From Actinobacteria bacterium HGW-Actinobacteria-2 (lineage in GTDB: Bacteria; Actinomycetota; Actinomycetes; Propionibacteriales; Propionibacteriaceae), in assembly GCA_002841335.1 (NCBI GenBank), contig PHEY01000010.1, positions 1 through 63,456 of the forward strand: a stretch of DNA of 63,456 nucleotides. The letters are read 5' to 3'. The position numbers and the translations under genes were made by a program. Under the pieces are notes generated by a model that saw only the letters and a list, made by a program, of their open reading frames with translations, was not told the DNA's origin and ran no database searches. Positions 54,360-55,775 of this stretch are shown here, one piece after another (positions within the stretch are counted from its first letter, which is position 1; each line of letters begins with the position of its first letter).

Positions 54360-54719
54360 CCCTCCATGATGCCCTGTCCGAGGGCCCGGTCGGGACAAGC
54401 CGGCGCAATTCTGGACGCCGGGCAGGCCCCGCGTGGCGAGCCACGCAAATCGGTTAACAACATAATGAGTTGCTGCAAATGATGCGGGTGCCGCCATTTG
54501 AATCACCCGTCACCCGCATTGGGGACACTCATCGCATTTTCAATCAGGCCATTCCGGGAACAACGCGAGTCATTGCGCCCGCTTTATCGGCCCTGCTCGC
54601 GAGTCGGCGCCGACCCCCTCGAGGCCGACGGAGAACCCTCCCCATCACCGCTCCCACCGGCTAGCCTGAGATCCGAGGACGCAACGATCGGCGTTCACCG
54701 CACACCAAGGAGCAGTGAC
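54360..54719. other. Gene-free region upstream of the phosphatase and DUF1508 genes
   Basis: About 360 bases with no supported gene. It has a locally A/T-rich patch (GGTTAACAACATAATGAG near 54452) and an inverted repeat ATGCGGGTG (54482-54490)/CACCCGCAT (54511-54519). It probably holds promoters for the two flanking divergent genes. The downstream DUF1508 gene's site AAGGAG lies at its right end. Confidence 0.5.
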
Positions 54720-54899
54720 ATGGCAGCGAAATTCGAGCTCTACAAGGACGCCAAAGGCGAGTACCGCTGGCGTTTGAAGGCATCCAACGGCCAGACCATC
54801 GCCACTGGCGGCGAGGGCTACAGCAGCGCGAGCAGCGCTAAGGCCGGCATCGATTCGGTCAAGCGCAACGCCGCGGATGCCGAGATCGAAGAGGTCTGA
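54720..54899 (+). CDS. DUF1508 (YegP-like) small protein
   Basis: A 59-residue protein, a single DUF1508 domain: KFELYKDAKGEYRWRLKASNGQTIATGGEGYSS is the conserved beta-sheet core, followed by KAGIDSVKRNA. Family members such as YegP are small beta-structured proteins of unknown function, often induced by stress. AAGGAG lies seven bases before the ATG. A strong hairpin ends the unit 17 bases after the stop. Confidence 0.92.
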   Translation: MAAKFELYKDAKGEYRWRLKASNGQTIATGGEGYSSASSAKAGIDSVKRNAADAEIEEV

Positions 54900-54916
54900 G
54901 CACCCACTCACAGCGA

Positions 54917-54945
54917 GGGCCGGGGCGTTGGTTGCGCCCCGGCCC
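54917..54945 (+). terminator. Terminator after the DUF1508 gene
   Basis: GGGCCGGGGCG (54917-54927) pairs with CGCCCCGGCCC (54935-54945) in an 11-bp G/C stem with a seven-base loop, followed by TTGACTT. This is a strong factor-independent terminator candidate. Confidence 0.75.
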
Positions 54946-55038
54946 TTGACTTGCCCCGCGCAATACCACGCCGCCGCTACGTGCTATTGCTCACTCACAC
55001 CCCCGTTGTGAGAGCGGGTTTCGCGGTATTATTCAGAT

Positions 55039-55275
55039 GTTCTTGGGGTGGTGCCGACTATGGGACCGAGTAACGTCACCGGGGGGGCGACGAGACTGGA
55101 ACCAACCAAACCAAGATCACTGGAGAGCGAGAGGCCATCGCCGGGGGGCATGGTGGCAAGCACTCAGCCGGACTCCGGCGTAACTCTCCGAGACAGTGCC
55201 GCAGGGCAGCCATGGCCTTGCTAAGACACTTTGGGCGACCAGGCGAGTTACCTCGACTGGTCGCCCATTGTCGTT
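55039..55275 (+). ncRNA. Candidate structured RNA with its own promoter and terminator
   Basis: A gap of 399 bases between the DUF1508 and NUDIX genes has no long gene but is built like an RNA gene. A promoter TTGTGA (55006-55011), 15-base spacer, TATTAT (55027-55032) predicts a start near 55039. TCTTGG (55041-55046) pairs with CCAAGA (55111-55116). CACTG+GAGAG (55118-55127) pairs with CTCTC (55184-55188) and CAGTG (55194-55198), enclosing the hairpin GCCGG-ACT-CCGGC (55167-55179). The 3' end is a 10-bp hairpin GGGCGACCAG (55233-55242)/CTGGTCGCCC (55257-55266), with an inner CGAG/CTCG stem, followed by ATTGTCGTTGTT. I could not match it to tmRNA, RNase P RNA, SRP RNA or common riboswitches. 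Confidence 0.6.
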
Positions 55276-55298
55276 GTTGCTGGGCCTAGGCTCCTGCT

Positions 55299-55775
55299 GT
55301 GGCCACTCCAGACTTCATTCGCGAACTGCGCAGCTTGATCGGCACTCGGCCCTTGTGGCTGACCGGCGCCACCGCGGTGGTGACACGCGAGTCGGACGAC
55401 GGCACCGAGATCCTCCTGGTTCGACGCTCCGACAATGGCGAATGGTCCCCGGTCTCGGGCATCGTCGACCCGGGTGAACACCCGGCAGTGACGGCGGTGC
55501 GCGAAGTCAGCGAGGAGGCCGGCGTCACCGCCAAGGTGGAACAGCTGGTGTGGGTGACCGTGACCGACATGATCACCTATGCCAATGGCGACCAAACCCG
55601 CTATCTCGACCACATCTTTCGCTGCCGTTGGACCGGCGGGGAGCCGCACCCTGCCGACGGCGAGGCCACCGAAGCCGCATTCTTCGGACTCGATCGCCTC
55701 CCCCCGCTGCGCGCCGACTACGCCGAACGCGTGCAGGCGGCGCTCACCCCGGCCGCAACGACCCGGCTGGACTGA
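55299..55775 (+). CDS. NUDIX hydrolase
   Basis: A 158-residue NUDIX enzyme with the complete box at residues 54-76: Gly54, then Glu60, Arg68-Glu69 and Glu72-Glu73 in REVSEEAG, matching GX5EX7REUXEEXGU. It hydrolyses a nucleoside diphosphate linked to another group; substrate unknown. GTG 55299 lies six bases after TAGGCT (55287-55292), a leaderless start. The promoter is immediately downstream of the candidate RNA's terminator, so the gene appears independent of that RNA. Confidence 0.93.
   Translation: MATPDFIRELRSLIGTRPLWLTGATAVVTRESDDGTEILLVRRSDNGEWSPVSGIVDPGEHPAVTAVREVSEEAGVTAKVEQLVWVTVTDMITYANGDQTRYLDHIFRCRWTGGEPHPADGEATEAAFFGLDRLPPLRADYAERVQAALTPAATTRLD

Follow-up and report, generated by a model that had tools for sequence, protein, structure and literature searches.

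A noncoding RNA gene very probably lies between the DUF1508 and NUDIX genes of the window, which is the whole stretch of 63,456 nt that was analysed (contig 12 of a 2.92-Mb genome). Its product, of about 235 nt, is predicted to fold into three domains and lies outside Rfam. The gene spans positions 55039 to about 55275 of the + strand, is intergenic, and occurs in single copy. We consider a real noncoding RNA gene the most likely reading because its stems show compensation, its identity between relatives is above that of fourfold sites, and no reading frame is common to the four genomes that carry it. The preliminary description had proposed a structured RNA of about 235 nt with a gene of its own and had stated that it was not a NUDIX leader. 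Our analysis supports an independent gene of this kind that is probably not a NUDIX leader, and it found no Rfam match.

Genomes are designated by G numbers, G000 being the window's own genome, and the host genus was taken as Propionicimonas-like. The RNA is certain in 4 of 30 genus genomes (G000, G004, G007, and G008), so it is present in close relatives, and in each of the four it lies between DUF1508 and NUDIX.

Predicted fold and its conservation

The minimum free energy (MFE) of positions 55035 to 55275 was -114 kcal/mol, with a z score of -4.81, and 0 of 200 dinucleotide shuffles equaled it. The 229-nt transcript of G000 had a z score of -4.57. This value dropped to -2.35 when the terminator hairpin was removed, with 2 of 200 shuffles equaling it. 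Therefore, a good part of the fold stability comes from the terminator. Without that hairpin, the z scores of the other carriers were -2.75 (G004), -1.69 (G008), and -1.12 (G007).

Both the MFE and the centroid prediction gave three domains in series followed by the terminator, with the 5' end within domain 1. All of the stems named in the preliminary description were present: TCTTGG/CCAAGA, CACTG/CAGTG with GAGAG/CTCTC inside it, GCCGG/CCGGC, and the 3' hairpin. The length predicted there, near 235 nt, also fits. The T-rich tail that had been assigned to the 3' hairpin is a weaker point: the tail TTGTCGTTGTTG is mildly T-rich, and a consensus scan of 54700 to 55500 detected no T-tailed hairpin. 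The fold is least certain in domain 2, because its MFE structure in G000 and G004 pairs the inner part otherwise and lacks the GCCGG/CCGGC hairpin. On its + strand, the 63-kb window has three runs of at least six G, two of them within the RNA, and 10 such runs of C.

Table. Features of the DUF1508-NUDIX interval, in window positions
Feature	Positions	Strand	Basis or remark
DUF1508 gene, 59 aa	54720-54899	+	PF07411, E 1.6e-23; upstream of the RNA
GC-rich hairpin, 12-bp arms, 3' of DUF1508; likely DUF1508 terminator	54916-54946	+	sequence inspection
Upstream element TACGTGCTATTGCTCAC, 32 nt 5' of the -10 box; may be an operator or activator site	54978-54994	+	four-genome pattern
-10-like box TATTAT, 6-7 nt before P1	55027-55032	+	read by eye
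Domain 1: P1, internal loop, S2, apical hairpin	55039-55118	+	alignments, pair counts
P1 arms, TCTTGG with CCAAGA	55041-55046, 55111-55116	+	
Domain 1 internal loop GGTGGTGCCGACTA	55047-55060	+	conserved
G-run of the domain 1 apical hairpin	55081-55087	+	
Domain 2, closed by CACTG/CAGTG and GAGAG/CTCTC	55118-55198	+	sequence inspection
Domain 2 closing stem, CACTG with CAGTG (GAGAG/CTCTC within)	55118-55122, 55194-55198	+	
Domain 2 G-run	55143-55148	+	
Domain 2 inner hairpin, GCCGG with CCGGC (55167-55179)	55167-55171, 55175-55179	+	
Hairpin P3, GCAGGGC/GCCTTGC	55201-55221	+	outer 5 pairs also form in G004, G007, G008
Terminator-like hairpin	55232-55267	+	inverted self-match, 89%
NUDIX -10 box TAGGCT	55287-55292	+	6 nt before GTG; same box in relatives without the RNA there
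NUDIX gene, 158 aa, GTG start that appears leaderless	55299-55775	+	PF00293, E 4.2e-20

The preliminary description had called for a test of covariation in homologous loci, and compensatory change was found. The four carriers fall into two close pairs. One pair has TTCTTGG/CCAAGA as P1, and the other has CCTTTTGG/CCAAAAGG (or CCAGAAGG). We counted pairs in a MAFFT alignment of the four carriers (A7), with 500 shuffles as a control. In the P1/S2/apical structure, 89.7% of 68 cells were paired, compared with 25.8 to 51.5% when the partners were slid by 1 to 3 columns. Three pairs (5 cells) had changed on both sides. The control was mixed: the A7 value was reached by 10 of the 500 shuffles for percentage paired, 2 for the cell count, and 7 for the covariation score, but by 94 for how many pairs had changed on both sides and by 435 for the number of further pair types. 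After manual setting of the S2 register, changes on both sides were found in 2 of 8 pairs of P1, 2 of 3 of S2, 1 of 16 of the terminator, and 0 of 5 of P3, in a count whose hand-made helices lean towards the structure. The domain 2 inner hairpin has one compensatory pair of five, between G000 and G004 only. Across the four carriers, the outer five pairs of P3 were paired in 20 of 20 cells with no double change, and the terminator hairpin in 62 of 64 cells with one. Because there are only four sequences in two close pairs, the covariation rests on few events.

Identity of the RNA between G000 and G004 was 82% over 228 columns, above that of fourfold sites in NUDIX (54 of 83, 65%) and in DUF1508 (19 of 27, 70%). 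Between G000 and G008 it was 55.5% over 229 columns (37 of them gap columns), compared with 35 of 75 (47%) and 12 of 24 (50%) fourfold sites. Clear constraint between G000 and G008 is therefore limited to domain 1. The internal loop GGGGWGGYGCCGACTA (RNA consensus GGGGWGGYGCCGACUA) and a domain 1 run of at least six G are kept in all four carriers. A Shine-Dalgarno-like GGGGAGG in domain 1 was considered as a conserved ribosome-binding element and rejected; it occurs in G004, G007, and G008, is changed in G000, and is absent from G022.

The chance that the RNA instead encodes a short protein, as a coding or dual-function RNA, is very slight. G000 has a + strand frame of 58 codons that starts at GTG 55048 (or GTG 55051 or ATG 55060), is preceded by a purine-rich stretch, and stops at 55222. 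Its peptide VPT..G..NVTGG resembles APTSE.GSDVTGG in G008, and G000 and G004 have a common frame on the - strand, of 45 and 47 codons. However, the + frame breaks after 26 codons in G004, for which the alignment shows an insertion of one base. In G007 and G008, the corresponding stretch runs for 23 codons without a stop, and neither of them has the - strand frame. The peptide resemblance is explained by the conserved bases. No start-to-stop frame of at least 20 codons was common to all four carriers.

It is also improbable that the interval has no RNA function and consists of chance inverted repeats in a promoter-rich NUDIX spacer. The small sample, the modest z scores without the terminator, and the narrow distribution would agree with that reading, but it is opposed by the compensatory changes in anchored stems and by conservation above fourfold sites.

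Promoter side, upstream element, and relation to NUDIX

Of the promoter-like boxes proposed in the preliminary description, the TATTAT box can be read by eye. Its counterparts in the other carriers are TAGTAT (G004) and TAAAAT (G007 and G008), so TANNNT occurs in all four. However, there is no good -35 box, and the consensus scan of 54700 to 55500 found no + strand sigma-70 promoter, its sole match being on the - strand. Because that scan finds neither the TATTAT box nor the hairpin at 55232 to 55267, both were judged by conservation and not by consensus.

An upstream element, TACGTG-N-TA-N-T-N-C-(N)-CAC, about 32 to 33 nt above the box, is kept while much of the surrounding DNA varies. The pattern TACGTGNTANTNCN{0,1}CAC had exactly one match in each of G000, G004, G007, and G008 and none in the other 26 genus genomes; it was derived from the same four carriers, so only its absence elsewhere counts as a result. 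The reversed pattern, used as a control, had one match in the 30 genus genomes. At the equivalent place, G022 has TACGTG and then CAC in a different form, and in two further relatives, G015 and G028, a palindrome (GGTAGTTNTACC) lies about as far from a candidate -10 box. The upstream elements of the carriers, G022, and G015/G028 look like regulator sites. In G000, an imperfect inverted repeat, GCAATACCACG...CGTGCTATTGC, lies at window positions 54962 to 54992 and has the element as one of its arms. In G007 and G008, the element lies instead within GTGGTANTACCAC.

Domain 1 could also be imagined to sense a ligand and control terminator read-through into NUDIX, which would make the RNA a cis-acting NUDIX leader. 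From the end of the terminator hairpin to the NUDIX start there are 31 nt, G004, G007, and G008 have the same order, and the conserved internal-loop bases look like those of an aptamer. However, NUDIX keeps its own TAGGCT box. This box immediately precedes the NUDIX start in G000 and in six relatives without the RNA (G016, G001, G027, G025, G012, and G005), and near forms (TAAGCT, TAGGGT, and TAAGGT) occur in G026, G018, G010, and G021; G013 has no box. No Shine-Dalgarno sequence, as a leadered transcript would use, was seen before the NUDIX GTG in the window, and no riboswitch family of Rfam matches. Because NUDIX has its own box and no Shine-Dalgarno sequence, we regard the leader reading as unlikely. 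The same -10 box argues against cotranscription, and riboswitch or T-box features gave no Rfam aptamer match.

Known RNA families and a proposed function

An Rfam search of 801 bases (54700 to 55500) at E ≤ 10 gave 11 matches, all far below gathering scores, and the whole window gave none at the gathering threshold. Six related loci searched at E ≤ 1 gave three matches, all below gathering scores, as were the Rfam matches over the hairpin at 54916 to 54946. Thus, the comparison with Rfam that had been suggested at the outset returned no family match. ARAGORN found no tRNA or tmRNA in the window; the preliminary description had been unable to match the RNA to tmRNA, RNase P RNA, or SRP RNA, and neither ARAGORN nor Rfam gave a match to these.

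A 6S/Ms1-like or raiA-motif RNA had also been put forward as possible, and our analysis did not support this suggestion. None of these was among the 11 Rfam matches, the predicted fold is not an end-closed rod, and no HAD-hydrolase gene is adjacent. Models of 6S RNA and of the raiA motif are both in Rfam. A 6S-type covariance model had no match in 54700 to 55500 at E ≤ 10, and the raiA motif was not among the Rfam matches at E ≤ 10. The raiA motif RNA is structured, about 200 nt long, and found partly in Actinobacteria. The window RNA is likewise a structured RNA of about 200 nt, but it has no match at E ≤ 10 and has different neighbors. The 6C/B11 small RNA of Actinobacteria has two hairpins with C-rich loops. 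Like it, the window RNA is small and structured and has homopolymer runs in two domains, but the runs are of G and not C, and the RNA is longer. The 6C RNA (RF01066) was not among the Rfam matches, and the loops of the window RNA carry G-runs.

An RNA of the 6S/Ms1 type would bind RNA polymerase as a decoy or store, here in a genus that would have lost the usual Ms1 place; this is improbable. The length and the RNA's own promoter fit. Ms1 and 6S genes resemble the window gene in being stand-alone, intergenic, 200 to 300 nt long, and fast-evolving, with a place kept by their neighbors. PMC9130861 describes Ms1 genes as sometimes too dissimilar for sequence search and as marked by HAD hydrolase/oxidoreductase neighbors, and its Ms1 table names, for Propionibacteriaceae, only Auraticoccus, Friedmanniella, and Microlunatus. 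In the own genome, the sole HAD-IB match lies in a 405-aa frame and scores below the cutoff, so no Ms1-type neighbor is evident. However, the flanks are DUF1508 and NUDIX, and the HAD hydrolase/oxidoreductase neighbors of Ms1 are absent, the nearest genes being DUF1508, NUDIX, and adenosine deaminase, which follows NUDIX. There was no 6S-like match at E ≤ 10, and the RNA is without any Rfam match. The predicted fold has three serial domains; with domain 1 taking up the 5' end and the terminator hairpin forming the 3' end, the model would leave no closing rod with a central bubble.

Our preferred reading is that a lineage-specific RNA gene, with a promoter and a dedicated upstream element, makes a three-domain, trans-acting regulatory small RNA; we give this whole statement about an even chance. 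The TANNNT promoter, preceded by its dedicated element, would make an RNA of about 230 to 265 nt, and we infer both the transcription and the transcript ends. The transcript would fold into three domains, end at the strong hairpin, and most likely act in trans as a regulatory small RNA. Its stems may present the conserved internal loop and the domain 1 G-run loop to a C-rich RNA or a protein partner, and the upstream element may let one transcription factor switch the RNA on or off. A trans-acting small RNA fits because the RNA is stand-alone, apparently regulated, and structured and has two conserved loops.

Sites complementary to the conserved loop numbered 46 in the four genomes (four being the RNA gene itself), compared with 85 for the reversed control, so there was no enrichment. 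We fetched 30 of the 46 as loci and found no credible conserved target; among these 30, two groups of sites at matching positions in both clades were antisense to coding frames. Pairing of the G-run loops with 6C RNA was rejected. The 6C model matched in 0 of 30 genus genomes, a weak test given that it responds in 1 of 14 control genomes and there below its cutoff.

Distribution and positional counterparts

A blastn search of 60 genomes, including the own one, gave one real homologue, in G004, at 81% identity. A match in G016 (30 bases, E 2.7e-4) was discarded because its locus reads as a long coding-like region. NUDIX orthologues at E ≤ 1e-20 were found in 18 of 30 genus genomes, counting the own genome. 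The spacers before NUDIX were read in these 18, the remaining 12 having no match at that threshold, and this DNA revealed the RNA in G007 and G008. DUF1508 orthologues at E ≤ 1e-10 were likewise found in 18 of 30 genomes, with DUF1508 directly before the RNA-bearing spacer in G000, G004, G007, G008, and G022. Eleven other genomes carry NUDIX (apart from the carriers, G022, G015, and G028). In nine of these, a major facilitator superfamily (MFS) transporter gene lies shortly before NUDIX, identified by Pfam in G016 and by tblastn in eight, with the match ending 34 to 150 nt before NUDIX. This gene lies too close to NUDIX for the RNA to fit in between. In G021 and G013, this place is occupied by other sequence.

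We built two models: R2, from domain 1 of the four carriers with the structure given, and R1, from five sequences with an RNAalifold structure lacking P1. The window domain 1 scores 92 bits with R2, of which it is itself a part. In 391 order genomes, R2 matched the four training genomes and G067, where the match (E 0.016) lies antisense inside a 708-aa frame and was put down to chance; in 394 class genomes, it matched only G000 at E ≤ 0.001. Because of their strict filters and a sequence-heavy model, the R2 searches may miss diverged copies. In 198 family genomes, R1 matched its five training genomes and G173, which was rejected because the sequence (E 0.035) looks coding. Plasmids and phages that were searched gave no match. 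A mobile-element origin was rejected: three exact 18-base motif matches in viral contigs look coding, and one of them had E 0.043 with R2.

R2 had no match beyond chance in G022, G015, and G028. Because R2 does not recover them, their relation to the window RNA is one of place and layout only. In G022, a P1-like CAGCGC/GCGCTG encloses a six-G run, the second domain is closed, and both a third hairpin and a terminator are present; the z score of this region is -2.72, or -0.65 without the terminator. By these features, G022, and perhaps G015 and G028, is a positional counterpart too diverged to prove, and G022 may hold a diverged copy. Between DUF1508 and the spacer, G015 has a GNAT acetyltransferase gene (PF00583) in reverse orientation, and G028 reads likewise.

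Before NUDIX, about 470 nt of intergenic DNA in G028 (L024:1008-1475) and G015 (L025:1009-1475) folds strongly, with z scores of -6.0 and -5.0. It contains several G-runs, the upstream palindrome, and a terminator-like hairpin and does not match the window RNA model. This spacer is possibly a second unclassified RNA gene.

In a NUDIX tree of 22 rows, the five RNA-bearing rows and the two long-spacer rows were split by a branch, with 15 rows uncounted. The split is compatible with a single origin of the RNA, in a tree whose deep forks are weak. A broader idea is that the RNA represents a new structural class that displays G-runs, as a mirror of 6C/B11, and catches C-rich RNAs or a dedicated protein under its own transcription factor, with the spacers of G015/G028 (about 470 nt) and G022 (210 nt) as diverged members; we think this improbable.

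The RNA is new to Rfam and certain only in part of the Propionicimonas-like genus. A literature search by title found no such gene named for Propionibacteriaceae and no paper on DUF1508 together with a small RNA. For this family, it is an additional small RNA gene that is unclassified and well delimited, and its promoter, upstream element, and conserved loops can be tested. The very different RNA-like spacers at one place in sister species would be a useful case for the speed of small-RNA origin and divergence.

Between NUDIX and adenosine deaminase, G022 (L023:1236-1498) has four direct copies of a repeat of about 46 bases (CCTGAAC..NGGGACAGGTACTTCGGTTC). Two more copies are inverted, and the repeat is REP-like.
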